Shown: positions 26,954 through 60,908 of the stretch, in pieces
Layout of the letters: each line of letters begins with the position of its first letter
How positions within the stretch are numbered: position 1 is the stretch's first letter
NCBI GenBank assembly: GCA_029167225.1
Contig: JARFNK010000002.1
Span: 310,001 to 374,000 of the forward strand
Source of the DNA: Sphingobium arseniciresistens
Lineage (GTDB): Bacteria; Pseudomonadota; Alphaproteobacteria; Sphingomonadales; Sphingomonadaceae
DNA length: 64,000 bases
Direction of reading: 5' to 3'
Program-made: the position numbers and the translations under genes
The notes under the pieces: model-generated
What the model saw: the letters and a program-made list of their open reading frames with translations, nothing else
What the model was told of the DNA's origin: nothing
Databases searched by the model: none

Positions 26954-26983
26954 GAGAAATGCTCCCGTTGAGATGATGCCGGA

Positions 26984-33681: not shown

Positions 33682-33682
33682 G

Positions 33683-36958: not shown

Positions 36959-37346
36959 GATACCGACTCCCCAATGCTGATCTGAAGGCTAGTCCGTTGA
37001 ACTTGCATGTCCCATTCGCTGGTTCCCTTCCTCTGTTGAAGGTGGGGAGATTTGGGAGCGCATACCCGTCATGATTTTTCGCGCGTTGCCGATGGAGTCC
37101 TGCATGCCGTTTCCGGTTGGTGAAATTGCCCAATGAGTTCCCGGAGCAGATGCCAGTTTTCGACGGCGTATGATGGCATTCCGCGTCGGACCACAATCTC
37201 AGTTCCCCACTGACCGGTGCGCAGGGTTCACTGCCCCCAATACGGCCCTGCACCACCACCGGCGACGCGGACCAAAATTAGAAAATCTCTCGGGACGCTG
37301 CGGTGGGGGAACGGCATCGACGGAGGGATTAGAGAGGCCCGACCAC
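36959..37346. other. Divergent intergenic region between wza and the second GT26 gene
   Basis: About 390 bases separate the divergent starts, so it must hold promoters for the export unit and for the GT26/SGNH unit. Near the wza side is the ribosome site GGGGAG. In-frame extension of the GT26 gene to 37170 has no ribosome site and unlikely composition. I saw no strong palindrome or hairpin here. Confidence 0.5.
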
Positions 37347-39386: not shown

Positions 39387-39438
39387 TCGCCCACGGCGCT
39401 AGAAAACGGTTGGGGGATCCTCGCCAAGGGAGAAGTTG

Positions 39439-45427: not shown

Positions 45428-45611
45428 CCAACAAGACTCCTGTAATTCGGCACTTCTTGTCTATTCTGCGGGGCTAAACCCGTCGATCATGAGAACTCCC
45501 AAGGTGTTTTCATGCCTTGTTCGGCCCACGCCCAAAGCGCTTTATGCAGGCTTGGAAAATGAGCCTGCCGCACGCCGGCTCAACGGATGAATGACCCCGC
45601 AAGAGGTACGC

Positions 45612-46433
45612 ATGGCGCTGCTCAACTTTACGGATTTCAGTGGTTATCGCTGTCTCGACTTCGATCAGTGCCGCGATGCCGGAACGTCGCTGGCGGCGCG
45701 GTATCGGGAGGCATCGCCCTTTCCGCACATCGTGCTGGATGACTTCATCGATGCGGACCTGCTGCGCCAGGTCGTGGCGGAGTTCCCGGACAGCGCAGGC
45801 CAGCCCTGCTTCCTGCGCGACCAGGAGCGGCTGAAGTTCCAGTTCCGGCCGGATCAGTGCCCTGGCGCGGCCACGCGCGCGCTGTTCGCCGAACTCAATT
45901 CCCGCGCTTTTCTGGCCTTCCTGTCGGAAATGACGGGGATCGAAGGGCTGATTTGCGATCCCTATCATGCCGGCGCCGGACTGCATGAGATCAAGCGCGG
46001 AGGGCACCTGGGCATCCATGCCGATTTCCCCCGTCATGACATCATGAAGGTCGATCGCCGCCTCAACCTGCTCATCTACTTGAACGAAGACTGGGAAGAG
46101 GAATATGGCGGCGCGCTGGAGCTCTGGGATCGCCGGATGAGGCGGGCGGAGCGCAAGGTGCTGCCGGTGCTGGGGCGTGCGGTGGTGTTCAATACCGATC
46201 GCGATACTTTCCACGGCCATCCCGATGCGCTGACGTGCCCAGAGGGCCGCTCGCGCCGCTCCATCGCAACCTATTATTATACGGCGCGCCCGGCGGTGGC
46301 GACCAGGTTCGAGCGGACCACGGACTTTCGCCGCCGCCCCGGCACCGGCGACAAGCGCGACTGGCAAACGATATTGCAGCATCTGAAAGCCGACTGGCTG
46401 CCGCCCGCATTGCAGCGCCGCAAGAGCACGTGA
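45612..46433 (+). CDS. 2-oxoglutarate/Fe(II) oxygenase, prolyl-4-hydroxylase-like
   Basis: A 273-residue P4H-fold oxygenase. The iron ligands are H136 and D138 in LGIHADFPRH and a distal His in TFHGHPDA (about 203); the 2-oxoglutarate Arg is in EGRSRRSIATYYY. Related bacterial enzymes appear in sugar and secondary-metabolite loci. I prefer ATG 45612 because AGAGGT lies five bases upstream; 45591 is in frame but poorly supported. The next gene on the same strand is a membrane GT2, then the NRPS. Confidence 0.85.
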   Translation: MALLNFTDFSGYRCLDFDQCRDAGTSLAARYREASPFPHIVLDDFIDADLLRQVVAEFPDSAGQPCFLRDQERLKFQFRPDQCPGAATRALFAELNSRAFLAFLSEMTGIEGLICDPYHAGAGLHEIKRGGHLGIHADFPRHDIMKVDRRLNLLIYLNEDWEEEYGGALELWDRRMRRAERKVLPVLGRAVVFNTDRDTFHGHPDALTCPEGRSRRSIATYYYTARPAVATRFERTTDFRRRPGTGDKRDWQTILQHLKADWLPPALQRRKST

Positions 46434-46535: not shown

Positions 46536-47711
46536 ATGTTGATGACGCTCACCTGGATCATCTGCCTTGGCATGGCCATCCCGGTCGCGGTTCTCGCGCT
46601 GGAATGCCTGGTCGGCGCGTTGCCATCCTTCCGACGAAATCCGGGGAACAACGCCCCCCCCTATATCGTACTGATGCCCGCGCATGACGAAGCGGCGGGC
46701 ATCGCGAAATCGGTGACGGACGTTCTGGCCCAGCTTCGTGCCTGTGACCGGCTGGTGGTGGTCGCCGACAATTGCACCGACAATAGCGGGGAGATCGCGG
46801 AACGGCTTGGTGCGACGGTGATCACCCGGACCGATCCGGCGCTGCGCGGCAAGAGCTATGCGCTGCAATTCGGCCGCGTCTATCTGGAAGCGGAGTTCCG
46901 CAGGCATGGCGAGGCGCAGGCCGTCATCATCGTGGTCGATGCGGACTGCTCGCCCGAACCGCGTGCGCTCGGCCGACTGGCTGCCACGGCCTTGCGCCGC
47001 AATGCCATCGTGCAGGGGGCTTATCTGCTGAGGCCGCCGGCCAATGCGACGGCCATCGTGCAGATGTCCTGCTTCGCCTTTCTGGTGAAGAACCTCGTCC
47101 GGCAGCTGGCGCTGCGCCGCCTTGCCGGCGCGGCATTGCTGCAGGGGTCGGGCATGGCCTTTCCCGCGCGTACCTTCATGCGGATCGACTGGAGCCCGAC
47201 ATCGCTGGTCGAGGATCTCGATCTGGGCCTCCGGCTGGTCCTTGCCGGCGACCGCGTGACCTTCGACCATCGTGCCCAGTTCTTCAGCGACGCCAGTTCG
47301 CAGGGCGGGACTGCCGGCCAGCGCCGGCGCTGGGAGCATGGCATGCTGCAGGCGATGGGGACGTTCGTTCCCCGGCTTGCCCTTGCCGCGCTGCTTGGCA
47401 GGCCCCGCCTGCTGTTCCTTGCGCTGGACCAGATCATTCCGCCGACCGTACTGCTCATCATGCTTGCGGCTGTGGGAACGGTGCTGTCGCTGCTGTTGGG
47501 AGGGTTCTCGCTGCCCGTGCTGATACTGCTGCTGTGCGACGTGGCGCTGTTCGTCGGGCTGTTCCTGGCCTGGCTTGCGCATGGCCGCTCGCTTCTGCCG
47601 GCGCAGAGCATCGTCGCGGGCCTCAAATATATCATCTGGAAGCTGCCCATCTTCGTGCAGTTCATCACGCGCCGACAGCGCCAGTGGATACGGACCGATC
47701 GCGCGCCCTGA
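46536..47711 (+). CDS. Membrane-bound processive-type glycosyltransferase family 2
   Basis: A 391-residue GT2 with one N-terminal and three or four C-terminal membrane segments. The cytoplasmic domain has PYIVLMPAHDEAAGIAKS, DNCTDNSGEIAERLGA, the DxD-like IVVDADC, SLVEDLDLGLRL, and GQRRRWEHG, which is the QxxRW motif of cellulose- and hyaluronan-synthase-like enzymes. A ribosome site GGGGGAAG precedes ATG 46536. It may polymerise a sugar or add one to a lipid carrier. Confidence 0.87.
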   Translation: MLMTLTWIICLGMAIPVAVLALECLVGALPSFRRNPGNNAPPYIVLMPAHDEAAGIAKSVTDVLAQLRACDRLVVVADNCTDNSGEIAERLGATVITRTDPALRGKSYALQFGRVYLEAEFRRHGEAQAVIIVVDADCSPEPRALGRLAATALRRNAIVQGAYLLRPPANATAIVQMSCFAFLVKNLVRQLALRRLAGAALLQGSGMAFPARTFMRIDWSPTSLVEDLDLGLRLVLAGDRVTFDHRAQFFSDASSQGGTAGQRRRWEHGMLQAMGTFVPRLALAALLGRPRLLFLALDQIIPPTVLLIMLAAVGTVLSLLLGGFSLPVLILLLCDVALFVGLFLAWLAHGRSLLPAQSIVAGLKYIIWKLPIFVQFITRRQRQWIRTDRAP

Positions 47712-47996: not shown

Positions 47997-50900
47997 ATGG
48001 ATGGAATGGCTAGGCCGGACATCATTTTGTCCACGTCGCCGTCGGCTCTGGAAATATCTGGGGATCAGCATCAGGGGAGAATGCGCACGATCCTTGTTGG
48101 CGAGGAAACGCTTCTCGCCGCCTGCGCGGAATTGCTGCGCGCTAATGGACATGACATTGCTGCAGTCGTTGCCGGGCCGGGGCCTGCTGCGGACTGGGCC
48201 CAGCGTTCGGGGCTCGCCCTGTTCGGCAAGGCGCGCGCGCTGCTGAGCGCCGATCTTGGCCCTGTGGACTATCTTTTCAGCATCACCAATCTGTCGGTGC
48301 TTCCGCCCGAGGTGCTGGCGCTGCCGCGCTGCGCCGCGATCAATTTCCATGACGGCCCCTTGCCGACCTATGCCGGGCTCAACACCCCGGTCTGGGCGCT
48401 GCTGGCGGGCGAAAGCGCGCATGGTATCAGCTGGCACATGATGACGGACGCATTGGACGGCGGGGATATTCTCGCCCGCGAGGCCATCATGATCGATGAG
48501 GGCGAGAGCGCGGTTTCGCTCAACGCCAAATGTTTCGAGGCGGCGTTGCGCAGCTTTGGCGCGCTTGTGGGTGATCTGGACGCCGCCGTGGCTCAGGCTG
48601 TTCCACAGTCGCGCGGGCCGGAACGGCTGTTCGGCCGACGGGACCGGCCGGAGGCCGCCGCGACGATCGACTGGAGCACATCGGCGCAGGAGATCGCCCG
48701 CTTCGTCTCCGCGCTCGACTTCGGCAATTATCGCAATCCCATGGGCATGCCCAAGGCGCTGCTCGGCGACAGGCTGATCCTCATCCACGAGGTTACGGTG
48801 CTGGACAGCTGGTCCGGCGCCCGGCCCGGCACGATCCTGCAGGCGGGCACGCAGCCTGTCGTGGCCACGGGTACGACGGATGTGCGCCTTGGCCGGATTT
48901 CCGATGCGGACGGCCGGCCCATGGACCTGCCGGCCTCAGCGGTCGGCGGCCGCTTCGCCGCGCTGGACGAAGAACAGCGCAAGATGCTGAACGCCATCGA
49001 TTCCGCTGCCGGTCTCTATGAGGGCTGGTGGCGGCGCCGGCTGCTGGCGCGGGACAGCCTGCAGCTTCCCGCCTTCCGCGCGCCATTGCCGCTGGCTGGG
49101 GCCGCGCGGGTCGTGCAGGACCGCATCTTGCCGCCGGGCCGCGTCGGTTCTGAAGTGCTGACGGCGCTGGTCGCCTATCTCGGCCGTGTGGCGGACCGGG
49201 ATATGGTCGACATCGGCTATTCCGATCCGATCTTCAGCGCATGCCTCGACGGAATGGCGCCTTGGTTCGCATCGCAAATGCCGCTGCAGCTGCGGCTGGA
49301 CTGGAATCTGCCGCTTGAAGCTCTGCAGGATGGGCTGGAGCAGGAAATCGCGGCCATGCATAAGCGGGTCGCCATCGCGCGCGACCTGATCGGTCGCAGT
49401 CCCGAGCTGCGGGGCAGCGCACAGCTCGCGCATCCCGTCGCGATCCAGATGGTGGCCGCGCTCGACGACAGCGTCTGCGATGACGATACCGTCCTGACCC
49501 TGGCCATCCGCGCGGATGGCGGCGCCTGTCGCTGGACCTTCGACGGCAACCGGCTCGATCCGGCGGCCGCGGACGACCTGTGGCTGGGCTTCATGGCGTT
49601 CCTGGCGTCGGCCGAGGCAAGCCCGTCCTCTCCCATCGCGGAATTGTCGGTCCTTTCGCCAGCAGAGCATGCCATGGTGATCGGCGACTGGAACGCGACG
49701 CAGGCGCTGCGCCCAGAGGCACAAGCGATCCATCGGCTGTTTGTCGAGCAGGCGGCACGCACGCCCGGCAAGATCGCCGTGACGTCGCGCGGGGTTTCCC
49801 TGACCTATGCCGAGCTCGATGCCCGTTCCAACCAGATGGCGCGCCACTTGAGCGCTCTGGGCGTCGGGCCGGACGTGCTCGTGGGCATCAACCTCGAGCG
49901 CTCCGTCGATCTGGCGGTGAGCGTGCTTGCCGTCCACAAGGCGGGCGGGGCCTATGTGCCGCTCGATCCCGCCTATCCGCGGGACCGTCTGGCGCACATG
50001 GTGTCGGACTCGGGGCTCCGCGTCGTCCTGACCCAGGGCAGCCTGATCGGCGACCTGCCGGTCGAACGGGCGGAGATCGTGAATATCGACGAGGCGGGGG
50101 CGTTGCTCGCCGCTCTGCCGTCGACGGCCTTCGATGGCGGCGCGCGGCCGGAAAATCTTGCCTATGTCATCTACACCTCGGGATCGACCGGCCTGCCCAA
50201 GGGCGTGATGGTCGAGCATCGCAACGTGCTGAACTTCTTCGCCGGCATGGACCGCAAGCTGGAGCCCGATGGCGTCTGGCTTGCCGTCACTAGTCTCAGC
50301 TTCGACATTTCCGTGTTGGAACTCTGCTGGCCGCTGACCCGCGGCTATCATGTCGTGATTGCCACGGAGCGGGAAGTGCGGGGCGACGTCTCCGCCTCGG
50401 TCCGAGTGAAGCCGGTCGATTTCAGCCTGTTCTACTTCGCCAGCGGCGACGCCGGCAGCAATGCCGACCAGTATCGCCTGCTACTCGACGGCGCACGCTT
50501 CGCCGATGCCAATGGCTTCTCCGCGATCTGGACGCCGGAGCGGCATTTCCACGCCTTCGGCGCGCCCTATCCTAACCCTTCGGTGACATCGGCCGCGATC
50601 GCCGCCGTGACCTCGCGCATCAAGATCCGCGCCGGCAGCGTGGTCGCGCCGCTCCATCACCCGGTACGGATCGCCGAGGAATGGGCGCTGGTCGACAATC
50701 TCTCCAACGGCCGCGTCGGCATCGCCTTCGCGTCTGGCTGGCAGCCCGACGACTTCCTGCTCAATCCGCAGAATTTTGCCGATCGGCGCGGCGTGCTGAT
50801 GCGCAGCATCGAGGATGTCCGGGCGCTGTGGCGGGGCGAGAAGCGCAGCTTTCCGGGGCCGCTCGGCCATGACGTGGAGGTTGCGGTCTATCCGCGCCCG

Positions 50901-52685
50901 GTCCAGCCCGAATTGCCCTTCTGGATCACATCTGCCGGCAATGCGGACACCTTCGCCGCCGCCGGCCGGATCGGGGCCTGTGTCCTCACGCATCTCCTGG
51001 GGCAGACGGTGGAGGAGGTGGGCGAAAAGGTCGCCGCCTATCGCGCAGCCTGGCGCGAGGCCGGCCATCCCGGCGACGGGCATGTGACGCTGATGCTGCA
51101 CAGCTTCGTCGGCACCGATGCAGAGCGCGTGCGGGAGATCGTGCGCCAGCCGCTGATCGATTATCTGCGCACGTCGACCGATCTGGTGAAGCAATATGCC
51201 TGGTCGTTCCCGGCCTTCAAGCATCGTCCCGGCGCCGACTCCGCGCAGGATCTGAACATCAGCGACCTCAGCGCCGACGAAACAGACGCGCTGCTGGACT
51301 ATGCCTTCGAGCGCTATTTCGAGAGTAGCGGCCTGTTCGGCACGGCCGAGCATTGCGCGGCGCTGGTCGAGCGGGTGGTCGGGGTCGGCATCGACGAGAT
51401 CGGATGCCTGATCGATTTCGGCATCGCCGTCGATACCGTGCTGGAGCATCTGCCCGCGCTCAACCAGTTGCGGATGCAGGTGCAGGCCCGGTTCGACGGG
51501 ACCGAGAGCACCCTGCCGGAGCTCATGGCCCGCCATGGCGTCACCCATCTGCAGTGCACGCCCTCGCTGGCGCAGATGCTGACCATGGATGAACCGGCAC
51601 GGCCACGGCTCGCCTCGCTGCGGCGGATGATGGTGGGCGGCGAAGCCTTCCCGCCGCCCCTGGCGCGCGATCTTGCCGGGCTGGTGGGTGGTGCGGTCAT
51701 GAACATGTATGGCCCCACGGAAACGACGATCTGGTCCGCCGTCCATGAACTGGAGGCGAATCCGGAGACCCCGCCGCTGGGGAAACCGCTCGTCAACCAG
51801 CAGATCTACATCCTCGACCGGCGATTGCAGCCGGTTCGCCCAGGCACGCCGGGCGAACTTGTCATCGGCGGCAACGGTGTCGTGCGCGGCTATCTCGGCC
51901 GGCCGGAACTGACGGCGGAGCGCTTCATCGCCGATCCGATTGCCGCCGTGGGAAGCGCCTATCGCACCGGGGACATCGCCCGGCAGCGTGCCGACGGCAC
52001 GCTGGAGTTCATGGGGCGGCTGGATCATCAGGTGAAGATCCGCGGATACCGGATCGAGCTTGGCGAGATCGAGGCGGCGCTGGCCGCCTATCCCCAGGTG
52101 CACGAGGCCATCGTCATCGCGCAGGGGGAGGGGGCCGGGACGCGCCTGATCGCCTATCTCACCTGCGAATGGATGCTGGCGCCGACGCCCGACATGCTGC
52201 GCGAGCATCTGCGCGCGGGCCTGCCGGACTTCATGATCCCGTCCGCCTTCGTCATGCTGCCGGCCCTGCCACGCACGCCCAATGGCAAGATCGACCGCAA
52301 GGCGCTGCCCGCGCCCGACACCATCGTCGTCGAGCAAGTGGAGGACGAAGGGGGCGCAGAGCCGGCCAGCGCACTGCAGGAGCAGATACTGGATGTCTGG
52401 CGCGACCTGCTGAAGGTGCCGCGCGTTGACCTTCGCGACAATTTCTTCGACCTGGGCGGTAACTCGCTGCTGGCGGTGCAGATGCATCGCCGGCTTTCGA
52501 CGATGATCGAGCGGCCGCTCGCGCTCACCGACATCTTCCGCTTTCCCACCATCGCCTCGCTCAGCAGCCAGTTGTCGGATCCGGGTGCGCAGCCCGCCGC
52601 CGCGCGCGAGGGGCTGGACCGGGCGCGCAGCCGGCGGGCGGCGCTCCAGCGGCGCAGTGCTACTCGTCCTCTCGTACGGAATTGA
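47997..52685 (+). CDS. NRPS: formyltransferase, remnant C domain, A domain interrupted by luciferase-like monooxygenase, PCP
   Basis: A 1562-residue assembly-line protein. Residues about 29-330 are a formyltransferase with N116-x-H118 and D154, the same spacing as in methionyl-tRNA formyltransferase. About 340-560 resembles the C-terminal half of a condensation domain but has no HHxxxDG. The adenylation domain begins with LTYAELDARSNQMA, has YVIYTSGSTGLPKGVMVEH and FDISVLE (D770). An FMN-dependent luciferase-like domain of the MupA/Atu3671 type is then inserted (about 804-1165). The A domain resumes with MYGPTETTIWS, YRTGDIAR and PNGKIDRK. The carrier Ser is S1490 in DLGGNSLLA. Specificity residues read D-I-L-Q-M-G-M-I-W-K, close to the glycine code DILQLGLIWK. 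The PKS gene follows after three bases. Confidence 0.93.
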   Translation: MDGMARPDIILSTSPSALEISGDQHQGRMRTILVGEETLLAACAELLRANGHDIAAVVAGPGPAADWAQRSGLALFGKARALLSADLGPVDYLFSITNLSVLPPEVLALPRCAAINFHDGPLPTYAGLNTPVWALLAGESAHGISWHMMTDALDGGDILAREAIMIDEGESAVSLNAKCFEAALRSFGALVGDLDAAVAQAVPQSRGPERLFGRRDRPEAAATIDWSTSAQEIARFVSALDFGNYRNPMGMPKALLGDRLILIHEVTVLDSWSGARPGTILQAGTQPVVATGTTDVRLGRISDADGRPMDLPASAVGGRFAALDEEQRKMLNAIDSAAGLYEGWWRRRLLARDSLQLPAFRAPLPLAGAARVVQDRILPPGRVGSEVLTALVAYLGRVADRDMVDIGYSDPIFSACLDGMAPWFASQMPLQLRLDWNLPLEALQDGLEQEIAAMHKRVAIARDLIGRSPELRGSAQLAHPVAIQMVAALDDSVCDDDTVLTLAIRADGGACRWTFDGNRLDPAAADDLWLGFMAFLASAEASPSSPIAELSVLSPAEHAMVIGDWNATQALRPEAQAIHRLFVEQAARTPGKIAVTSRGVSLTYAELDARSNQMARHLSALGVGPDVLVGINLERSVDLAVSVLAVHKAGGAYVPLDPAYPRDRLAHMVSDSGLRVVLTQGSLIGDLPVERAEIVNIDEAGALLAALPSTAFDGGARPENLAYVIYTSGSTGLPKGVMVEHRNVLNFFAGMDRKLEPDGVWLAVTSLSFDISVLELCWPLTRGYHVVIATEREVRGDVSASVRVKPVDFSLFYFASGDAGSNADQYRLLLDGARFADANGFSAIWTPERHFHAFGAPYPNPSVTSAAIAAVTSRIKIRAGSVVAPLHHPVRIAEEWALVDNLSNGRVGIAFASGWQPDDFLLNPQNFADRRGVLMRSIEDVRALWRGEKRSFPGPLGHDVEVAVYPRPVQPELPFWITSAGNADTFAAAGRIGACVLTHLLGQTVEEVGEKVAAYRAAWREAGHPGDGHVTLMLHSFVGTDAERVREIVRQPLIDYLRTSTDLVKQYAWSFPAFKHRPGADSAQDLNISDLSADETDALLDYAFERYFESSGLFGTAEHCAALVERVVGVGIDEIGCLIDFGIAVDTVLEHLPALNQLRMQVQARFDGTESTLPELMARHGVTHLQCTPSLAQMLTMDEPARPRLASLRRMMVGGEAFPPPLARDLAGLVGGAVMNMYGPTETTIWSAVHELEANPETPPLGKPLVNQQIYILDRRLQPVRPGTPGELVIGGNGVVRGYLGRPELTAERFIADPIAAVGSAYRTGDIARQRADGTLEFMGRLDHQVKIRGYRIELGEIEAALAAYPQVHEAIVIAQGEGAGTRLIAYLTCEWMLAPTPDMLREHLRAGLPDFMIPSAFVMLPALPRTPNGKIDRKALPAPDTIVVEQVEDEGGAEPASALQEQILDVWRDLLKVPRVDLRDNFFDLGGNSLLAVQMHRRLSTMIERPLALTDIFRFPTIASLSSQLSDPGAQPAAAREGLDRARSRRAALQRRSATRPLVRN

Positions 52686-52688
52686 GCC

Positions 52689-55600
52689 ATGTATCACTAT
52701 TCTGACCCTTCTCCCTCTGGCGACGACGATGCGGGCGAAACGGCGGTTGCGATTGTCGGCATGGCCTGCCGCTTCGCGCAATCGCGGGGACTGGATGCCT
52801 ATTGGTCGCTGCTGAAGGAGGGCAGGGAAGCGATCTCGACCTATGACGAGGCGGCGCTGGTCGCGGCGGGCGTGAACCCTGCCTTGCTGCGCAATCCCAA
52901 TTATGTGCGATCGGGGGCACCGATCGAGGATATGGAATGTTTCGACGCGGGGCTGTTCGGCCTCAGCCCGCGCGATGCAGCGATCATGGACCCGCAGCAC
53001 CGCCATTTCCTGGAATGCACGTGGGAAGCGCTGGAGAATGCCGGGCACACGCCGCAGCGCTTTGAGGGCGTCGTCGGCGTGTTCGCGGGCTCGGGGCACA
53101 ATGCCTATATGCCCTATAACCTGCTGACCAACGCGAAGCTGGTCCGCGACGTCGGCCTGTTCCTGCTCCGCCACACCAGCAACGACAAGGATTTCCTGAC
53201 AACCCGGGTATCCTATCTGTTCGACCTCAAAGGGCCGAGCATCAACATCCAGACGGCTTGCTCGACATCGCTGGTGGCCATCCACATGGCGGCGCAGAGC
53301 CTGCTGAACGGCGAATGCGACATGGCGCTGGCTGGCGGCGCCTCGATCGAGCTGCCGCACCGGCAGGGCTATCTGTATGAAGAGGGAGAGATCCTTTCGC
53401 CGGACGGCCATTGCCGTCCCTTCGACGTCCAGTCGCAGGGCACGGTGTTCGGCAGCGGCGCGGGCGTGGTCGTGCTGCGGCGGCTGGCCGATGCGATTGC
53501 CGATGGCGATCATATCTATGCCGTGCTGCGCGGTTCGGCGATCAACAATGATGGCGCCGGCAAGGTCGGCTATCTCGCGCCCAGCGTCGATGGGCAATCC
53601 AAGGTCATTGCCGAGGCGCTGGCGATCGCCGGGGTCGAGGCGGACAGTATCGGCTATGTCGAGGCGCATGGCACCGGCACGCCGGTCGGCGATCCTATCG
53701 AGGTTGCGGCGCTGACTGCAGCGTTCCGCCAGTCGACGGACCGCGTCGGCTTCTGCCGGCTTGGATCGGCAAAGGGCAATATCGGCCATACCGACACGGC
53801 CGCGGGGGCCGCCGGCGTCATCAAGGTCGCGCTCGCGCTCCATCATGGCGAGCTGCCGCCGTCGCTCAATTTCGATGCGCCCAATCCGGCCTGCGCGCTC
53901 GAGCAGAGCCCCTTCGTGGTCCAGGCCAGCCGGTCGCAATGGGTGGCGGCAATTGGCCAGCCGCGCCGCGCGGGGATCAGCTCGCTTGGCGTTGGCGGAA
54001 CCAACGCCCATGTCGTGCTGGAGGAAGCACCGCTGCGGCTGGAAAGCGGGCCGAGCCGGCGGCGGCAACTGCTCCTCTGTTCGGCCAAGTCCGCCACGGC
54101 GCTCAGCGCCAACGCCTCTGCGCTGGCCCAGCATCTGGTGGTCAATGCCGACATGAGCCTGCCCGACGTGGCCTTCACGCTCGCGACCGGGCGACAGCAT
54201 CTGCCCCTGCGGCGTTTCGTGGTCGCCGATGATACCACAAGCGCTGCGGCCGCATTGCTGGCGGACGACACCAAGGCCGCGCCGGGCGCCTGCATCACCG
54301 ACCGGCCTGTCGCCTTCCTCTTCTGCGGCGCCGGCCCCCAGCATATCGACATGGCGCGCGGGCTCTACGAGACCGAGCCGGGCTTTCGTGCTGATGTAGA
54401 CCAATCGCTGCAGATATTGAACGGCCTTGGGGTTGCCGAGGTGCGGCGTTGGCTGTTCCCCACGGACGCCGACCGGGCGCAGGCCGTGCTGGAGATGGAA
54501 CGTCCCTCGATCGCTCTGCCGGCCCTGTTCATCATCCAGACGGCGCTGGCGCGGCACTGGATGTCGATCGGCGTCCGTCCATCTGCAATGATCGGCCATA
54601 GCTCAGGCGAATATGCCGCAGCCCACCTGGCCGGGGTCATCGATCTTCAGGCCGGCTTGCGGATCGTCAGCGGCCGTGGCCGCCTGTTCGAGACGATCAA
54701 GGATGGCGGCATGCTGAGCGTGCCGATGTCGGAGGCCGAGCTGTCGCCGCTGCTGCCGCCGGAACTGACCATCGCTGCCATCAATGCGCCGCGGCTCTGC
54801 GTCGTCTCCGGGCCGGGCGAGGCCGTGTCGCGCTTTCATCGTCAGCTCGAAGAGCAGGACATCGAGGCGCAGATCCTGAAGATTTCCGTGGCTGCGCATT
54901 CGCCGATGCTCGACCCGATATTACCGCAATTCCGCGCATTGATGGAGAAGGTCGAGCTGCGCTCGCCCGAGATTCCTTTCGCCTCGAACCTGACCGGGGA
55001 CTGGGTTTCCGCCCGCGATGTGACTGACCCCGAATATTGGGTGCGACACCTGCGCCAGGCCGTGCGTTTTACCGATGGCCTGCAGCGCCTGCTGGTCGAT
55101 CCCGACCGCGTGCTGCTGGAAGTGGGGCCGGGCAGGAGCATGTCCAGCCTCGCACGGCAGCACCCGGACCGTCAGCGCGCCCAGCCGGTACTGAACTCCC
55201 TGCGGCATCCCGACCAGGCGGTTGAGGATGACGCCTATTGGCTCGACGTTCTGGGCCAGCTGTGGAGCCTTGGTGTCGAGATCGACTGGGATGCCTATTG
55301 GGGCGAGGAGCGCCGGCTGAGGGTGCCTCTGCCAACCTATCAGTTCGACCGGCAGCGTCACTGGATTGAGCCGGGCGCCGCCTTCGCCGCATCCGATGTC
55401 GATCCTGATGGCCCGGTTGAGCGCGCCCCGGTGAGCGACTGGCAGTTCGAGCCGATCTGGACCCGCAGCACGATGCCGGTCGCGACAGTGCGCGAGGGCG
55501 CCGCGCTCATTCTCGCCGACGAAACCGGGCTTGCCGATCGCATCGCCGACCAGCTTCGCGCCGCGGGGCGCAGCGTCGTCATGGTGCAGCCGGGCAACCG

Positions 55601-58600
55601 GTTCCAGCGGCTGGGCCATGATAGGTTCGCGCTCGATCCGGCGAGTATGGCGGACTATGCCCATCTGTTCGACTGCCTGAGTGCCGATGGCACGCTTCCG
55701 ACGCAGATCTATCATTGCTGGCTGGTGACGGGCGACAGGATCGGACGGCGGGATGCCGGTCGTCTCATCGATCGCGGCTTCCACAGCCTGACCGCGATGG
55801 TGCCGGAACTTGCGCGGCAACTGGGCGAAAAGCCTGTCGAGGTGGCCGTCATCACTGATCGCGTGCACCGGGTCACGAACGAGGCCGATCTCGTGCCGCA
55901 AAAGGCGACCGCGCTTGGGGCCGCGAGCGTGATCGGCACGGAATATCCCAACCTGCATGTCCGCTGCATCGATGTGCAGGTTCCGGCCACGATCCATCGC
56001 ACCACGCTGGATGCGCTCGCCCGCGACCTGATAAGCGAAGTGTCCGCGCCATGTGAGGCGGGCGCAATCTGCCACCGCAATGGCGAGCGTTGGGTGCTGG
56101 AACATCAGGCGATCGCCGGCGACAGCGCGCGGGAGACTGGCGCGTTCTCCAATCTGCGGCCCGGCGCCACCTATGTCATTACCGGCGGACTTGGCGGACT
56201 GGGGCTCGCGCTTGCCCGCCATCTCTCCCAGTGGGAAGGCGTGAAGATCGGCCTGCTGACGCGAAAGGGTCTGCCGTCCCGCGAGCAATGGGCCGAGCTT
56301 CTTGCCAATGGCGCCGTCGAACAGGAAACGGCGGACAGGATACGCAAGCTGCTCGCGCTCGAAGCCGGTGGCGCGACGGTCGAGATCGTCGTCTGCGACG
56401 TCGCCGATGCGCGGGCGATGCAGCGCGCCATGAAGCAGGTCGCGTCGAAGCTCGGCCCGATCACCGGCGTCTTCCATGCGGCGGGTACGCTCGACGACGG
56501 CCTGATGGAAACCAAGAGCCGCACGGCGATGGATGCCGTGCTCCGCCCTAAGGTGGATGGCACGCTCGCGCTGGACGCGGCGTTGCGGGGGCATCGCGTC
56601 GATTTCATCATGCTGTTCTCGTCGATCAGCGCCTTTGCCGGGATCGCAGGTCAGGCGGACTATGCCGCCGCCAACGCCTTCCTCGACTGCTATGCCCAGT
56701 CGCGCCGGGGTGATCCGGTAACGCAGGTGATCTCGGTCGCGTGGAGCCAGTGGCGGGAGGTCGGCATGGCCGCGGGGCTGCAGCGGCAGGCGGAAGTGGT
56801 TGCCGGCCCGGCCGAAAAGCTGGGTGAGGGCAAGCCTGTCGATCATCCCTTCTTCGACCGGCTGCATAGCATTTCGGTCGACGACTATGTGGTGTCGGGC
56901 ATATTGACGCCCGAAACGCACTGGGTACTCGACGAGCACCGGGTCGTCGGCGGCGACGCCCTGATGCCTGGCACCGGCTATCTCGAGCTGGCCCGCGCTG
57001 CGCATGCGCTGGTCGATCATGGCCCGGCGGTGCTTTCCGACATCACCTTTCTGACGCCATTCTCCGTGCCTGATGGGACGGCGCGGGAACTGCGTGTCAG
57101 CCTGCGCCGCCGGGTCGGCAATGACTGGCGGTTCGTGGTGCTGGGGCGCCCGGTTGGCGCGAGCCAGATGGAATGGACCCAGCATGCGGAAGGCGCTGTA
57201 TCGGCCCGGTTGACGACGGAATTGCCGGAAATGCTGGATATTGCCGGCATCCGGGAACGTTGCGACACGGTTGTCCAGGGGCGCTGCGATACCGGGCCGA
57301 CGATGCAGTTCGGCCCGCGCTGGGACACCATTCAGCAGGTCGCGCTGAACAGTGAGGAGGCGCTGCTCTACCTCGCCATGGACCCGCTATTTCACGCCGA
57401 ATGCAGCACGTTGCAACTGCACCCGGCGCTGCTCGATTTCGCGACCGCCGGCGCGCAGATGCTGATCCCGGACTATTATGCGAGCCGGGATTTCTTTGCG
57501 CCCTTCTCCTATCGGCGGGTCATCCTGCACGCACCCCTGCCGCCCGTCGTGGTCAGCCATGTACGCTATCGCCCGCGTGCCGGCGCTTCGGGATCCACCG
57601 CCGTCTTCGATGTGACGATCGTCGATCCCTTTGGTCAGGTGCTGGCGGAGATCAGTGAGTTCACCATGATGCGCGTGCGCGATGCATCCGTGCTGTCCCG
57701 CAGCAGCGGGAAGTCCCTGGCGCTCGCCCAAACCGATGGAGCGGCTCCTGCCGAAGTCTCCGCAATCCCAGATGGCATCCTGCCCGAGGAAGGGCTTCAG
57801 GTCATCGACCAGATCCTGGCCGGCCGTTCGCGCGCCCATGTCGTGATCTCGCCCTATGACCTGCGCGCCCATCTGGCGAAACTTCGTGCGCCCAGAAAGG
57901 CGCCGAGGCGCGTCGCATCCAGCGATCGGGAGGGCGGTGACGATCAACTGCCGGCGACCGCCACGGAGCAGGTGATCGCGGCCCTGTGGTCCGATCTTCT
58001 GGGCGTTGACCCGATCTACCGAAACGACAATTTCTTCGATCTGGGCGGCCATTCATTGCTCGCGGTGCAGTTCACCAATCGGCTGCGCAAGAAAACCGGC
58101 AAGATCCTGCCCCTGGCCGCGATGATGGACACGCCGACCGTCGCCAACCTCGCCAGGGAGATCGACCCGGATTCCGCGATCGCGGTCGTGGACGGCGAGC
58201 AGGGCGCTGCGTCCTCGTCGCTGCCGGCGCGGGACATCGTGACGATCCGTGGCGGGGGCACGCAGACGCCGATCTTCTTCGTGCATGACGGTCTTGGCGA
58301 GACGCTGCTGTACCGCGGTCTCGCGTTGCGCCTCGATCTTGCGCGCCCGATCTACGGCATCGAGCCTTTGCGCACGCCATCGGGCAACTTCGCCCATACG
58401 AGCATCCAAGAGATGGCAGCCAATTATGTCGGGCGCATCCAGACGGTTCAGCCCAAAGGACCGTATCTGCTGGCGGGCCTGTGTGCCGGTGGCGTGATCG
58501 CCTTTGAGATGGCGCGGCAGCTGCAGGATCAGGGACAGAGGGTCGCCTTTGTCGGGATTATCGACGCGGCCGATGTCGCATTGGCCAAGCGGCCATTCTA

Positions 58601-59183
58601 CATCACGCGCACGCGGCTCCGGCGGATCAAGAGCCTGGTCGGGCAGGGCGACCTGCTGCACCTGCTGCCGGCTATCGTGAAAAAGTCGTTCAATGCGGTA
58701 CGGTGGGAAATCGCCTCGCGGCTTCAGGAGGCGCATAACCGGCGGGTCGTGCAGCGCATCGGCCATGCCAATGCCAATGGCAATGCCGTCGACCATGCCG
58801 AGGCGGTGCATCACGACCCCGCGGCGATTTCCTTCCTGAAACTCTACGAGGTCGCCCATCAGGCTCATCGGCCCGAAGGAGTGTTCGAAGGCGGCGTCGT
58901 TGCGCTCTTCAAGGCGAACGAAGGCAATGGCCAGGTCGAGGACATCCCCTATGCGCAGGTCTACAATGACTTCGCGCTCGGCTGGGGGCGCCGTGTTTCC
59001 GACGATGTCACCGTGGTATCGGTGCCCGGCGGGCACAGCACGGTCCTGCAGGAACCGCATGTCGGCACGCTCGCATGGGTTTTCCAGGAAGCGGTGGATT
59101 GCGCGACGTCGTCCATCGACATGCAGACAGCGCCAGAACCCAAGCCCGTGTTCACCGCACCGATGGAGGTTGCCGCCGAATGA
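52689..59183 (+). CDS. Type I PKS: KS-AT-KR-DH-ACP-TE
   Basis: A 2164-residue single-module PKS. KS: TACSTSLVAIH (C191), EAHGTGTPVGDP and KGNIGHTDTAAG. AT: GHSSGE (S638) and, at the specificity site, VAAHSPM, neither HAFH nor YASH; malonyl is likely. KR: GGLGGLG (from residue 1166) and Y1325 in GQADYAAANAF. DH: after KR in sequence, with H1417 in DEHRVVGGDALMPG, one residue longer than HxxxGxxxxP, and D1583 in HPALLD. ACP: S1789 in DLGGHSLLA. TE: a Cys (C1932) sits in GLCAGG where Ser is usual, with His in PGGHSTVLQ. It would extend the NRPS-bound glycine by one C2 unit, reduce it and perhaps dehydrate it, then release it. The ATG is three bases after the NRPS stop; its stop overlaps the GT2 start. 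Confidence 0.94.
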   Translation: MYHYSDPSPSGDDDAGETAVAIVGMACRFAQSRGLDAYWSLLKEGREAISTYDEAALVAAGVNPALLRNPNYVRSGAPIEDMECFDAGLFGLSPRDAAIMDPQHRHFLECTWEALENAGHTPQRFEGVVGVFAGSGHNAYMPYNLLTNAKLVRDVGLFLLRHTSNDKDFLTTRVSYLFDLKGPSINIQTACSTSLVAIHMAAQSLLNGECDMALAGGASIELPHRQGYLYEEGEILSPDGHCRPFDVQSQGTVFGSGAGVVVLRRLADAIADGDHIYAVLRGSAINNDGAGKVGYLAPSVDGQSKVIAEALAIAGVEADSIGYVEAHGTGTPVGDPIEVAALTAAFRQSTDRVGFCRLGSAKGNIGHTDTAAGAAGVIKVALALHHGELPPSLNFDAPNPACALEQSPFVVQASRSQWVAAIGQPRRAGISSLGVGGTNAHVVLEEAPLRLESGPSRRRQLLLCSAKSATALSANASALAQHLVVNADMSLPDVAFTLATGRQHLPLRRFVVADDTTSAAAALLADDTKAAPGACITDRPVAFLFCGAGPQHIDMARGLYETEPGFRADVDQSLQILNGLGVAEVRRWLFPTDADRAQAVLEMERPSIALPALFIIQTALARHWMSIGVRPSAMIGHSSGEYAAAHLAGVIDLQAGLRIVSGRGRLFETIKDGGMLSVPMSEAELSPLLPPELTIAAINAPRLCVVSGPGEAVSRFHRQLEEQDIEAQILKISVAAHSPMLDPILPQFRALMEKVELRSPEIPFASNLTGDWVSARDVTDPEYWVRHLRQAVRFTDGLQRLLVDPDRVLLEVGPGRSMSSLARQHPDRQRAQPVLNSLRHPDQAVEDDAYWLDVLGQLWSLGVEIDWDAYWGEERRLRVPLPTYQFDRQRHWIEPGAAFAASDVDPDGPVERAPVSDWQFEPIWTRSTMPVATVREGAALILADETGLADRIADQLRAAGRSVVMVQPGNRFQRLGHDRFALDPASMADYAHLFDCLSADGTLPTQIYHCWLVTGDRIGRRDAGRLIDRGFHSLTAMVPELARQLGEKPVEVAVITDRVHRVTNEADLVPQKATALGAASVIGTEYPNLHVRCIDVQVPATIHRTTLDALARDLISEVSAPCEAGAICHRNGERWVLEHQAIAGDSARETGAFSNLRPGATYVITGGLGGLGLALARHLSQWEGVKIGLLTRKGLPSREQWAELLANGAVEQETADRIRKLLALEAGGATVEIVVCDVADARAMQRAMKQVASKLGPITGVFHAAGTLDDGLMETKSRTAMDAVLRPKVDGTLALDAALRGHRVDFIMLFSSISAFAGIAGQADYAAANAFLDCYAQSRRGDPVTQVISVAWSQWREVGMAAGLQRQAEVVAGPAEKLGEGKPVDHPFFDRLHSISVDDYVVSGILTPETHWVLDEHRVVGGDALMPGTGYLELARAAHALVDHGPAVLSDITFLTPFSVPDGTARELRVSLRRRVGNDWRFVVLGRPVGASQMEWTQHAEGAVSARLTTELPEMLDIAGIRERCDTVVQGRCDTGPTMQFGPRWDTIQQVALNSEEALLYLAMDPLFHAECSTLQLHPALLDFATAGAQMLIPDYYASRDFFAPFSYRRVILHAPLPPVVVSHVRYRPRAGASGSTAVFDVTIVDPFGQVLAEISEFTMMRVRDASVLSRSSGKSLALAQTDGAAPAEVSAIPDGILPEEGLQVIDQILAGRSRAHVVISPYDLRAHLAKLRAPRKAPRRVASSDREGGDDQLPATATEQVIAALWSDLLGVDPIYRNDNFFDLGGHSLLAVQFTNRLRKKTGKILPLAAMMDTPTVANLAREIDPDSAIAVVDGEQGAASSSLPARDIVTIRGGGTQTPIFFVHDGLGETLLYRGLALRLDLARPIYGIEPLRTPSGNFAHTSIQEMAANYVGRIQTVQPKGPYLLAGLCAGGVIAFEMARQLQDQGQRVAFVGIIDAADVALAKRPFYITRTRLRRIKSLVGQGDLLHLLPAIVKKSFNAVRWEIASRLQEAHNRRVVQRIGHANANGNAVDHAEAVHHDPAAISFLKLYEVAHQAHRPEGVFEGGVVALFKANEGNGQVEDIPYAQVYNDFALGWGRRVSDDVTVVSVPGGHSTVLQEPHVGTLAWVFQEAVDCATSSIDMQTAPEPKPVFTAPMEVAAE

Positions 59184-60190
59184 CCCAGCCCCATGCAGAC
59201 CTGCCGACCATCGATGTCATTATCGTCAACTACTGCACCGGATCCTTGGTCGTTGCCTGCCTGGAAAGCCTTGAGGAGGAACTGAAGAACCTCCCCAATA
59301 TGCGCGCGATCGTCGTCGACAATGCGTCGGGGGATGGCTCGGCGGATTTGATTGACGCCGTGGTGCGCAAGCGCGGCTGGGATTGGGTCACGCTCATGCG
59401 GGCGGGCGCGAACCGGGGGTTCGGCGCCGGCAACAATCTTGGCATCAGCTGGGCGCTGGACCGTCCCTCGCCGGCGGATCTGCTGTGGCTGCTCAATCCC
59501 GATACCCAGGTGCGCCCGACCGCAGGCTTCGCCCTGGCGCGGTTCATGGCGGCGCATCCAGCGGCGGGCATCGCGGGAAGTGCGCTGCTCGAAAGCGATG
59601 GCAAGCTCTGGCCATTTGCCTTTCGCTTCCCCAGCATCCTTGGCGAGATCGAGCGGGGCGCGCGCTGGGGGGTGGTCTCCCACCTGCTCCGCAAGAATTC
59701 GACGATGCTCCATATGCAGGATCGTTGCGAGAAGGTGGATTGGGTTTCCGGCGCGAGTTTCGTTGTCCGCCGCGAATTGCTGGAGGCTGGGCTCCGCTTT
59801 GATGAGGGCTATTTCCTCTATTATGAGGAAACCGATTTTTGCCTGAACGCCAGCCGGAGCGGGTGGGAATGCTGGTATGTGCCCGACGCCGTGGTCCTGC
59901 ATATTGCGGGGCAGAGCAGTGGCATCACGGGCAAGCAACTCCAGTTGCGGCGGCTGCCCTCCTATTGGTTTCGTTCCCGGCATCGCTATTTTACCAAGAA
60001 CCACGGCGTGCTGTACGGGATGATGGCCGATCTGGCCTGGGTGGGAGCGCACCTGCTTGCGCGGATAAAGCATCTTCTGCGCGGAACGCCCGATCCTGAT
60101 CCGCCAAACCTGCTGACCGATTTTCTCCGCCATTCCGCATTATGCCCGCTCAAGCGGCCAAGGTCGCCAAATGACGCTCTTACTGGCTGA
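59180..60190 (+). CDS. Glycosyltransferase family 2 (rhamnosyltransferase-like) in the NRPS/PKS operon
   Basis: A 336-residue GT2. It begins IDVIIVNYCTGSLVVACLESL, with IVVDNASGDGSADLI, AGANRGFGAGNNLGISWAL and WLLNPDTQVRP (metal site). SGASFVVRRELLEAGLRFDEGYFLYYEETDFCLNA follows, all typical of dTDP-rhamnosyl-transferase-like enzymes. The ATG overlaps the PKS stop (ATGA), so it is translated with the assembly line. That makes glycosylation of the NRPS/PKS product, or transfer involving the adjacent glycan, plausible. Its last 20 bases overlap the PPTase gene. Confidence 0.88.
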   Translation: MTQPHADLPTIDVIIVNYCTGSLVVACLESLEEELKNLPNMRAIVVDNASGDGSADLIDAVVRKRGWDWVTLMRAGANRGFGAGNNLGISWALDRPSPADLLWLLNPDTQVRPTAGFALARFMAAHPAAGIAGSALLESDGKLWPFAFRFPSILGEIERGARWGVVSHLLRKNSTMLHMQDRCEKVDWVSGASFVVRRELLEAGLRFDEGYFLYYEETDFCLNASRSGWECWYVPDAVVLHIAGQSSGITGKQLQLRRLPSYWFRSRHRYFTKNHGVLYGMMADLAWVGAHLLARIKHLLRGTPDPDPPNLLTDFLRHSALCPLKRPRSPNDALTG

Positions 60191-60908
60191 GAGCCTGGGC
60201 CTCCAGCATCGGCTTGCAGCCATGGGGATCCGGTGCGTGCCGATTGGTGGGGGCACTGCGCCTTATCCGATATGGCTGCTGGGCATGGAGGATCTGCCGT
60301 CCTCGGCTGCGATCGGCCTGCTCTCGTCGGAAGAATGGGAGAGAGCCCAGCGCTTCGGGTCACAGAAATTGCGCAGTCGCTATGTCGCGGCACATGCGGG
60401 CCTGCGTCTTCTGATCGCCGAGCAGTTCGATATTCCGCCCGGCTCGCAGCAGTTCGCGCGCAACGCATTCGGCAAGCCGCAACTGGCGGGCAGGCCGGAC
60501 ATCAGGTGCAGCATCAGCTATTCGGGAGATTGCGTGCTGATCGGGCTGTCGCAGGGCGCGGAAATCGGCGTGGATGTGGAAATCCTGCGGCCGATCGAAG
60601 ATGCGCTGGCATTGATCGAGACTCAATGCTCGATCGGAGAGCAGAAGGCCCTGCGGCGCGCCTGGACGATGGGGAGGGGTTTTGACCGGGGTTTTTTGAG
60701 GGTGTGGGTCAGGAAAGAGGCCTGCGTGAAGGCACTTGGCTGCGGACTTTCAATCCCTCTTGCTGATATTGAATGCGGCATGGGGCGTAGAATGACGACG
60801 GTGAAGTTTGGTAGAAGACAAATCCTCACCGACGTCATTCATGCGAGCGACCATTGCATTAATTTTTCTCCGTGCGACCTTATCATTGGCTGGGCCCAGC
60901 TTTGCTGA
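60171..60908 (+). CDS. 4'-phosphopantetheinyl transferase, Sfp type
   Basis: A 245-residue enzyme that installs phosphopantetheine on carrier domains. The magnesium motif is IGVDVE (D135, E137), and the second motif is VWVRKEACVKALG (E183, K187). RSRYVAAHAGLRLLIAE and FGKPQLAGRPDIRCSISYSGD are as in Sfp, except that the usual SH pair is SY here. It is probably dedicated to the PCP (52.46 kb), the PKS ACP and the stand-alone ACP at 26.7 kb. It ends the operon. Confidence 0.92.
   Translation: MTLLLAESLGLQHRLAAMGIRCVPIGGGTAPYPIWLLGMEDLPSSAAIGLLSSEEWERAQRFGSQKLRSRYVAAHAGLRLLIAEQFDIPPGSQQFARNAFGKPQLAGRPDIRCSISYSGDCVLIGLSQGAEIGVDVEILRPIEDALALIETQCSIGEQKALRRAWTMGRGFDRGFLRVWVRKEACVKALGCGLSIPLADIECGMGRRMTTVKFGRRQILTDVIHASDHCINFSPCDLIIGWAQLC

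Follow-up and report, generated by a model that had tools for sequence, protein, structure and literature searches.

Known assembly lines and polymer-decorating systems

LgrA of linear gramicidin combines an N-terminal formyltransferase with an A domain and a carrier (F-A-T). The NRPS described here, found in a 64,000-nucleotide stretch of the Sphingobium arseniciresistens genome (the window, to which all positions refer), has the same elements and retrieves LgrA in PDB comparisons; however, its formyltransferase is closer to ArnA and Fmt, its best PDB relatives, and the NRPS further retains a condensation C-lobe, has a monooxygenase inside its A domain and is followed by a PKS, all within a polysaccharide locus. 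This luciferase-like (LLM) domain belongs to the MupA/Atu3671 monooxygenases (TIGR04020), such as the PuwE domain, scoring 505.8 bits against a curated cut-off of 244.45, and its closest solved structure is PuwE (6ket, E 1.2e-110); what sets it apart is its position inside an A domain of glycine type, in a predicted formylating module.

In the D-alanylation of teichoic acids, a surface polymer is acylated by way of adenylation and a carrier thioester (DltA/DltC). The present locus is alike in outline and is not counted as a member. D-alanylation involves neither a PKS nor a formyl step. XrtA/PEP-CTERM exopolysaccharide systems are echoed by the Wzz-, kinase- and Wza-like proteins, an acyl ligase and a PLP decarboxylase of the window, whose matches to models TIGR03007, 03018, 03027, 03098 and 03099 all fall below the cut-offs; in contrast to the present locus, those five models include no multidomain NRPS/PKS. 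The mycobacterial sulfolipid is a glycolipid made by PKS/NRPS enzymes. For the mycobacterial glycopeptidolipids, one paper describes an assembly line serving a glycoconjugate (PMC3537567). Both mycobacterial products are lipids, whereas the locus described here would serve a Wzx/Wzy polymer, and the enzymes differ.

An NRPS/PKS operon with a formyltransferase domain

The four genes of the operon and their domains are as follows.

47997..52685, forward strand: NRPS, 1562 aa, FT - C-lobe - A(LLM) - T
48288..48932, forward strand: formyltransferase domain, aa 98-312, motif NFHDGPLP (Pfam PF00551/PF02911)
48984..49730, forward strand: condensation-domain C-terminal lobe (profile of 26 relatives)
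49743..50375, forward strand: adenylation domain, N-terminal part, FDISVLE
50421..51473, forward strand: luciferase-like monooxygenase that interrupts the A domain, aa 809-1159 (TIGR04020)
51501..52307, forward strand: adenylation domain, C-terminal part, glycine-like code DILQMGMIWK
52380..52568, forward strand: carrier (T) domain (PF00550)
52689..59183, forward strand: type I PKS, 2164 aa, KS-AT-KR-DH-ACP-TE
52743..54032, forward strand: ketosynthase (PF00109/PF02801)
54309..55157, forward strand: acyltransferase, GHSSG and AAHS (PF00698)
56166..56759, forward strand: ketoreductase (PF08659)
56844..57686, forward strand: dehydratase (PS-DH), after the KR (PF21089/PF14765)
57972..58160, forward strand: acyl carrier domain (PF00550)
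58269..59180, forward strand: thioesterase with Cys nucleophile, GLCAGG (PF00975)
59180..60190, forward strand: GT2-family glycosyltransferase, 336 aa (PF00535), adjoining PKS/NRPS in many related loci
60171..60908, forward strand: 4'-phosphopantetheinyl transferase, PPTase (PF01648)

The sequence-only reading had proposed the order NRPS, PKS, GT2 and PPTase with minute gaps or overlaps, which is borne out for all four genes at their positions. Between the NRPS and PKS open reading frames there are 3 bp. With the ATG at 59180 as its start, the GT2 shares 4 bp (ATGA) with the end of the PKS, and a further 20 bp are common to GT2 and PPTase. The GT2 frame that begins at the first ATG (59075) probably overestimates the gene, whose likelier extent is 59180-60190; the same 4-bp overlap with the PKS is seen in the ORF coordinates of four related loci (L011, L013, L017 and L021). 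The proposed placement directly after an oxygenase and a membrane GT2 holds in part: both lie upstream, but 285 bp separate the NRPS from the EpsU-like GT2, the last gene of the polysaccharide locus. No promoter-like site was detected between 47700 and 48050 in a sigma-70 consensus scan, a result of little weight in this group of bacteria. The length of the ORFs, the scores of their domains and the conservation of motifs among relatives rule out a chance or annotation artefact. The PPTase protein has a single match in its own genome at E 0.001, in an assembly with 6% contamination.

Conservation in the NRPS was followed in an alignment of 92 of the 96 contexts, which required one alignment piece of more than 900 aa and left out G043, G123, L055 and L082; G043 and G123 were examined apart. 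The active site of formyltransferases is Asn-His-Asp, of which Asn and Asp are kept in 92/92 rows and His in 91/92, and this domain precedes an A domain and a carrier, as expected for a formylating NRPS initiation module. The stretch that follows, aa ~330-575, had no Pfam match up to E 10 in a single-sequence search; as a profile of 26 relatives it matches PDB 6p1j (E 3.3e-22) and the C domains of Txo2, Txo1, McyB and PvdL. A complete condensation domain comprises both lobes with HHxxxDG, and is ruled out here, since the profile covers only the C-terminal part of the solved C domains; the N-lobe is absent and the formyltransferase sits in its place. The residues D, I, L, Q, G, W and K of the A-domain code, mapped by motif alignment, and the Ser of the T domain are each kept in 92/92 rows. 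The code resembles DILQLGLIWK, a Gly-type specificity code, and lends support to the earlier proposal of a glycine start.

The PKS is a type I reducing module with a release domain, in which all domains carry their active-site residues, the Ser of the thioesterase being replaced by Cys. The Cys-His-His of the ketosynthase is kept in 74/77 rows, with gaps in the other three, and the thioesterase nucleophile is Cys in 14, Ser in 57 and Asp in one of the 77 rows (five gaps).

A stripped form of the line is found in the genus g44, in the same polysaccharide context. It lacks the monooxygenase and the DH and has also lost the active-site Ser and His of the AT and the Tyr and Asn of the KR, so that the remaining motifs are those of loading, formylation, relay (KS, ACP) and release (TE). 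These residue losses rule out that only monooxygenase and DH are missing and that the product is 4-formamido-3-hydroxybutanoyl. The simplest prediction would be an N-formylglycyl group, unless the line is decaying, as it may be, or is served by a separate acyltransferase.

The neighbouring polysaccharide locus

Upstream of the operon, Wzx, Wzy, Wza, Wzz and glycosyltransferases occur together, as in Wzx/Wzy-dependent polysaccharide loci.

32890..36958, reverse strand: tyrosine-kinase-like, Wzz-like, DUF481 and Wza-like genes
37170..38174, forward strand: WecG/TagA/CpsF glycosyltransferase (PF03808)
38161..39321, forward strand: candidate SGNH-like acyltransferase or esterase, GHSL ... DxxH (motifs from alignment)
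39436..41019, forward strand: glycosidase-like protein with conserved Glu motifs
40932..42593, forward strand: Wzy-like polymerase, Wzy_C (PF04932)
42828..44210, reverse strand: Wzx-like flippase, clustering with a PF13440/PF01943 protein
45591..46433, forward strand: 2OG-Fe(II) oxygenase (PF13640)
46536..47711, forward strand: EpsU-like membrane GT2 (NF041865, 148 bits, under the cut-off of 700)

Three of the four genes at 32890..36958 match XrtA-system models under the model cut-offs, and the Wzz-like protein scores slightly under its Pfam cut-off. Gene counts were made by direct searches after an initial clustering, in which the 2OG oxygenase and EpsU genes had been displaced by long antisense ORFs. 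The glycosidase-like protein, for which no match was found in Pfam, NCBIfam or the PDB, occurs in 37/397 family genomes, including all ten that carry the NRPS. The 2OG-Fe(II) oxygenase was rejected as a line-specific partner, being present at E 1e-40 in 36/367 family genomes, seven of them NRPS-positive. The SGNH-like gene (E 1e-10) is confined to four of 397 family genomes, all NRPS-positive, and was not found in the other six of the ten; it also adjoins the NRPS in Rhodobacterales and Rhizobiales loci. Its product has no Pfam match and its profile gave meaningless weak matches in the PDB, while GHSL and DxxH are conserved. A second GT2 family (E 1e-30 or better) was found in 44 of the 96 contexts, with related loci sampled as the 80 top-ranking out of at least 589, and lies directly upstream of the NRPS in all nine other NRPS-positive family genomes; in the window it is absent beside the NRPS, and a relative is located on another contig of the same genome.

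Recurrence of the pairing

The line is rare overall (10/397 and 10/385 sampled genomes) and was found in one of eleven sampled genomes of its own genus. Where the FT/C-lobe NRPS occurs among the 397 sampled family genomes, polysaccharide genes adjoin it in 10/10 cases; the same holds for 4/4 Rhodobacterales-like (f22) genomes of the class sample, in whose nine other genomes the flanks of G643 and G629, mainly formyltransferase matches, were left out. A polysaccharide context was assigned to 63 of 85 classifiable loci, a label given by similarity to genes of the window that includes a kinase/ATPase marker, which may catch generic ATPases, with relatives sampled as the best 80 of at least 589, so that deeply branching forms and those lacking the monooxygenase are underrepresented. 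At 12 of the 85 loci all ten neighbour families were absent, eight of these loci being from other phyla; within the same best-80 sample, deep-branching relatives lie mostly outside polysaccharide loci, and in the Chloroflexota locus L023 a further NRPS module takes the neighbouring place.

In 12 of 16 genomes WecG and the NRPS are no more than 25 kb apart, against 0.26 expected from random placement in genomes assumed independent and of rounded size, with G043 and G123, of the same genus, both counted; WecG and Wza were searched in 17 genomes, of which G700 (a 10.3-kb contig with no match) was left out. Wza was discarded as a general neighbour, occurring in 9/16 genomes, yet in 0/4 f22 genomes. 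The gene order varies, with NRPS-PKS-GT2 in sphingomonads, PKS-GT2-NRPS in Rhodobacterales and a mostly divergent arrangement in Rhizobiales, while the context is constant, and two annotated plasmids independently show the pairing.

Co-conservation across the family, the class sample and related loci thus supports the sequence-only reading in assigning the assembly line to the polysaccharide locus, and homologues were not found mostly in unrelated contexts (10/10 family genomes, 4/4 f22 genomes, 63/85 loci). The formylation, oxidation, C4 product and polymer attachment that it proposed would agree with the domains. Its statement that polysaccharide loci normally lack such lines has to be amended: among the sampled Rhodobacterales, Rhizobiales and sphingomonads the line usually sits in such a locus, even though few genomes have it. 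That the pairing had not been described agrees with the matches listed in a search of open-access literature, which is a part of all literature.

A proposed acyl-building branch and its alternatives

Within the exopolysaccharide pathway, the four genes probably form a branch dedicated to building an acyl group, which, judged from its domains and motifs, would decorate the polymer with a small formylated amino-acyl unit. The PPTase would arm the carriers; glycine would be loaded on the NRPS and then N-formylated from formyl-tetrahydrofolate, and the inserted monooxygenase would oxidise the glycine unit, probably at the alpha carbon. Addition of probably one malonyl unit by the PKS, followed by reduction and dehydration, would yield a formamido-C4 acyl group, which the Cys thioesterase may release or transfer. 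The group would decorate a repeat-unit sugar before Wzx/Wzy export; the likeliest partners are the GT2 enzymes, together with the SGNH-like protein in genomes that have it.

This branch is favoured because polysaccharide genes adjoin the NRPS in every family and f22 genome that carries it, because WecG lies near it far more often than expected, because the context stays constant despite differing gene orders and on both plasmids, and because the SGNH-like gene is restricted to NRPS-positive family genomes and the second GT2 family recurs at the NRPS. It is further favoured because most sampled linked genomes have no other large KS: in frames of more than 525 aa, no second KS was found in 8/10 family and 4/4 f22 NRPS-positive genomes. 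However, G734, which lacks any polysaccharide link, likewise has this PKS as its sole large KS, so KS exclusivity alone proves nothing. Also against the branch stand the 12 loci without neighbour families, the NRPS module in L023, the absence of the operon GT2 from the fetched Rhizobiales flanks and of the SGNH-like gene from six family genomes, and, in the window, the missing adjacent upstream GT2 and the 285-bp gap, as well as the possible decay in g44.

The thioesterase could, moreover, simply free an acid. It is conceivable, if rather unlikely, that the product is a small molecule such as a siderophore, signal or antibiotic, which stays free and may be glycosylated, and that the operon only happens to reside in polysaccharide islands, these being hot spots of exchange. 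The terminal thioesterase of the PKS, the deep-branching relatives outside polysaccharide loci and the scarcity of the line in its own genus would fit such a product, as would roseobacter genome papers that class PKS/NRPS clusters, not necessarily this one, as secondary metabolism (PMC4337385, PMC11225332). A context kept over three alphaproteobacterial orders with differing gene orders speaks against it, as do the co-occurrence of the SGNH-like gene and the fact that no dedicated exporter was noticed within the four-gene operon. The recurrent pairing in related orders suggests a slime-polymer decoration rather than an ordinary secondary metabolite.

There is little to commend the idea of a product that acts as a primer or lipid-linked group, acylating a glycolipid or an undecaprenyl-linked start sugar that the GT2 extends: the GT2/PKS overlap shared with L011, L013, L017 and L021 and a weak match of the GT2 to a rhamnosyltransferase model fit it, but the predicted acyl group is short and polar, and the flanks fetched for Rhizobiales loci showed no operon GT2. 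Least probable of all is a signal that controls polysaccharide synthesis and is sensed by neighbouring LuxR-type regulators, since, although two GerE proteins lie just downstream (60935-61204 and 61670-62419) and relatives of the second are near the operon in L021, L085, G057, G013 and G112, these searches revealed a neighbour of this kind in few other loci, the second regulator shows a weak match to a response-regulator domain, and the linkage to Wzx, WecG and glycosyltransferases is broader.

Implications for alphaproteobacterial exopolysaccharides

Taking the acyl-building branch further, the chances seem about even that there is a recurring type of exopolysaccharide in which the repeat unit bears a non-sugar group built by a dedicated formyl-NRPS/PKS line, probably an N-formyl amino-acyl group, and that lineage-specific lines, with Cys or Ser thioesterase and in full or stripped form, change the decoration. 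If so, thiotemplate assembly lines and polysaccharide assembly, two fields annotated apart, would be joined, and a new class of N-formylated polymer substituent would be predicted. The locus would also offer a genetically tractable route to how the decoration of biofilm polymers arises, with the g44 line as a natural comparison. Recurrent orphan clusters of Alphaproteobacteria would gain a function, and in roseobacters, rhizobia and sphingomonads many of the orphan NRPS/PKS clusters would be polymer genes rather than antibiotic genes.

The assembly line and its polysaccharide locus

The four open reading frames that the sequence-only reading had described as a formyl-NRPS/monooxygenase/PKS operon are all present in the window, complete and tightly packed:

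47997-52685 (+): NRPS, 1562 aa, with formyltransferase, condensation-domain C-terminal lobe, adenylation domain interrupted by an inserted luciferase-like monooxygenase (TIGR04020), and carrier
52689-59183 (+): PKS, 2164 aa, KS-AT-KR-DH-ACP-TE, with the DH placed after the KR and the serine of the thioesterase (TE) replaced by Cys
59180-60190 (+): GT2
60171-60908 (+): PPTase

The GT2 probably starts at 59180 rather than at 59075, with an ATGA overlap with the PKS stop; GT2 and PPTase overlap by 20 bp, and 285 bp separate an EpsU-like GT2 from the NRPS. A search of the own genome returned no second PPTase match. Two LuxR/GerE regulators lie directly downstream (60935-62419, minus strand), where the G+C content falls to about 0.54. 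In loci L021 and L085 and in three further family genomes, relatives of the second regulator occur near the operon.

The polysaccharide locus occupies about 18-48 kb of the window, upstream of the NRPS, and comprises Wza-, Wzz- and tyrosine-kinase-like genes, Wzx, Wzy, two WecG-type transferases, several GT2/GT4/GT61 transferases, an acyl-AMP ligase and a PLP decarboxylase. Five of its proteins match XrtA/PEP-CTERM models, every score being under the model cut-off. The PLP decarboxylase and the acyl-AMP ligase (25443-28525) are related to the exosortase-A-associated TIGR03099/TIGR03098 and constitute a second amino-acid/acyl-activating pair of this locus.

Catalytic motifs and predicted product

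The adenylation specificity code of the window NRPS is DILQMGMIWK, for which we take the glycine code DILQLGLIWK to be the comparison standard; its residues D, I, L, Q, G, W and K are invariant in all 92 aligned NRPS relatives, as are Asn and Asp of the formyltransferase, whose His is found in 91. The nearest solved structure of the monooxygenase is PuwE (6ket; E 1.2e-110). Among the 77 aligned PKS rows, the KS residues are conserved in 74 and the carrier Ser in 73, the remaining three and four rows being gaps; AT Ser and His are present in all 77, KR Tyr in 76 and KR Asn in 72, DH His in 76 and DH Asp in 74. The TE nucleophile is Cys in 14 rows (sphingomonads and Caldimonas L013) and Ser in 57, a difference that might change the release chemistry. 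Judged from these motifs, the predicted product would be a C4 amino-acyl group that is N-formylated and possibly oxidised at the alpha carbon.

A stripped line is found in genus g44 (G043, L091-L092; G123, L103-L104), in which the NRPS lacks only the monooxygenase insert. From the PKS, the DH region is missing, together with about 70 aa of the AT including the active-site His, the AT Ser, and Tyr and Asn of the KR. Formyltransferase, glycine code, carrier Ser of both proteins, KS Cys and His, TE Cys and His, the GT2 and the polysaccharide context are kept. The alternative reading is decay; the simplest functional reading is that this line would load, formylate, relay and release glycine. Since both genomes belong to one genus, the loss counts as one event.

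Co-conservation with polysaccharide genes

The formyltransferase/C-lobe region was found in 10 of 397 genomes of the family sample. Flanks were fetched for the nine other positive genomes, and the proposed tie to polysaccharide genes held throughout: all ten loci, the window included, have the NRPS, the PKS, the operon GT2 and polysaccharide genes nearby. In G057, the PKS is split, with the KS in a separate 521-aa frame. Within its own genus, the NRPS is confined to the own genome (1 of 11 sampled), which points to patchy gain or loss.

The class sample gave matches in 10 of 385 genomes, own genome counted. Four belong to one family, f22, placed among named Rhodobacterales in the NRPS tree, and each of the four carries PKS-GT2-NRPS along with genes related to those of the window's polysaccharide locus. 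G676 and G734 have NRPS-PKS and lack the operon GT2; the G676 flank holds two GT4-like genes and one Wzz-like gene, with WecG 30 kb off, and flank and WecG searches in G734 revealed no GT4-like, Wzz-like or WecG gene near the NRPS. In G700, the match lies on a short contig with more assembly-line pieces; G643 and G629 were left out of the context comparison.

WecG occurs in at most three copies per genome (genome-wide search). Using 16 of 17 searched genomes (one dropped) and assuming random placement, 12 of the 16 have it <25 kb from the NRPS vs 0.26 expected (P about 1e-19), and 9 of 16 have Wza there vs 0.77 expected; the four f22 genomes all lacked a Wza near the NRPS.

The main rival explanation is that the line makes a free metabolite, whose genes travel along with polysaccharide islands. 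Beyond the locus's own, a search at E 1e-40 showed no ketosynthase match in a frame >525 aa in eight of the ten family genomes or in any of the four f22 genomes; G043 and G123 have one more each and G676 has three more. However, G734, which has no polysaccharide link, likewise has none, and this exclusivity therefore supports dedication only jointly with context. Roseobacter genome papers class PKS/NRPS clusters as secondary metabolism (PMC11225332, PMC4337385).

Wider relatives and plasmids

A scan of genome contigs, of which the best 80 of at least 589 relatives were taken as loci, gave 96 contexts together with 15 genomes and the window; 92 were aligned and 85 had enough flank for classification. 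Polysaccharide genes related to the window's are present in 63 of the 85 contexts drawn from these best 80 and the 16 others. Of the other 22, ten gave one or more hits of the neighbour profiles to a glycosyltransferase, Wzy or Wzz relative, some with just one GT4, and 12 gave none for the ten neighbour families tried; L019 (Myxococcales), one of the 22, combines two GT4 genes with a UDP-sugar dehydrogenase.

In the NRPS tree, the window's group comprises 13 sphingomonad rows, each of them polysaccharide-linked (SH-aLRT 90), and adjoins Burkholderiales. In a second large group (Rhizobiales, Rhodobacterales, Hydrogenophaga; SH-aLRT 100), 47 rows are linked and 2 are unlinked, with 3 unclassified. 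Most unlinked members among the 92 rows come from Myxococcota, Planctomycetota, Chloroflexota, Gemmatimonadota and Ramlibacter. L025, titled Comamonas sp. KCTC 72670, is very close to Myxococcus, and its label may be wrong. In L012 (Rhizobacter) and L014 (Aquincola), the NRPS is 54% identical to the window's and the PKS just 40-43%, so the two genes may reassort; the TE of L014 has Ser, and L012 is cut off.

Two annotated plasmids provide independent instances of the assembly line among polysaccharide genes. That of Ruegeria conchae carries a rhamnose operon, exosortase XrtD, sugar transferase, PKS, GT2, NRPS, PPTase, 2OG oxygenase and flippase, and that of Parasedimentitalea marina CpsD, sugar transferase, WecG, PKS, GT2 and NRPS. 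In the former (L132), XrtD adjoins the rhamnose genes and the assembly line. Related formyl-NRPS genes (about 31-33% identity; among 30 of 72 matching records) are found on large plasmids of Bradyrhizobium, Rhizobium and Sinorhizobium, many of these records being root-nodule isolates.

Partner genes

An additional GT2-family gene, distinct from the operon GT2 (PF00535 in 10 of 10 scanned members), is conserved directly upstream of the NRPS in L002-L007, L010, L011, L021 and others. Its own profile matches 44 of 96 contexts at E 1e-30 or better and 57 at E 1e-6. In each of the nine other NRPS-positive family genomes, the gene precedes the NRPS by no more than about 400 bp (on the opposite strand in G339); many Rhodobacterales loci have it at another place in the flank. 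The profile found no copy in the window, including the 285-bp gap before the NRPS; the best own-genome relative, 55% identical, sits on a different contig (C55:42818-43762).

An SGNH-like gene (38161-39321), a candidate acyltransferase/esterase, was found at E 1e-10 in four of the 397 family genomes, each of them NRPS-positive (hypergeometric 2e-7). In loci of Rhodobacterales and Rhizobiales it adjoins the NRPS. A glycosidase-like gene is present in all ten NRPS-positive family genomes and in 27 others. The 2OG oxygenase was rejected as an assembly-line-specific partner, being common in genomes without the NRPS.

Proposed role

Among the matches listed for the open-access literature (titles and abstract openings; subscription journals and bioRxiv preprints outside scope), no description of an assembly line of this kind within a polysaccharide locus was found, and a word search of a paper on Sphingomonadaceae polysaccharides (PMC5399355) gave no polyketide, nonribosomal, adenylation or NRPS. 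The D-alanylation of teichoic acids is alike in outline, in that an activated acyl group on a carrier is passed to a polymer; the window line, however, is not assigned to that family. The acyl group made by the NRPS/PKS line would serve to decorate the polysaccharide, and the simplest account is that the four genes form a dedicated branch providing an acyl decoration for the polymer.
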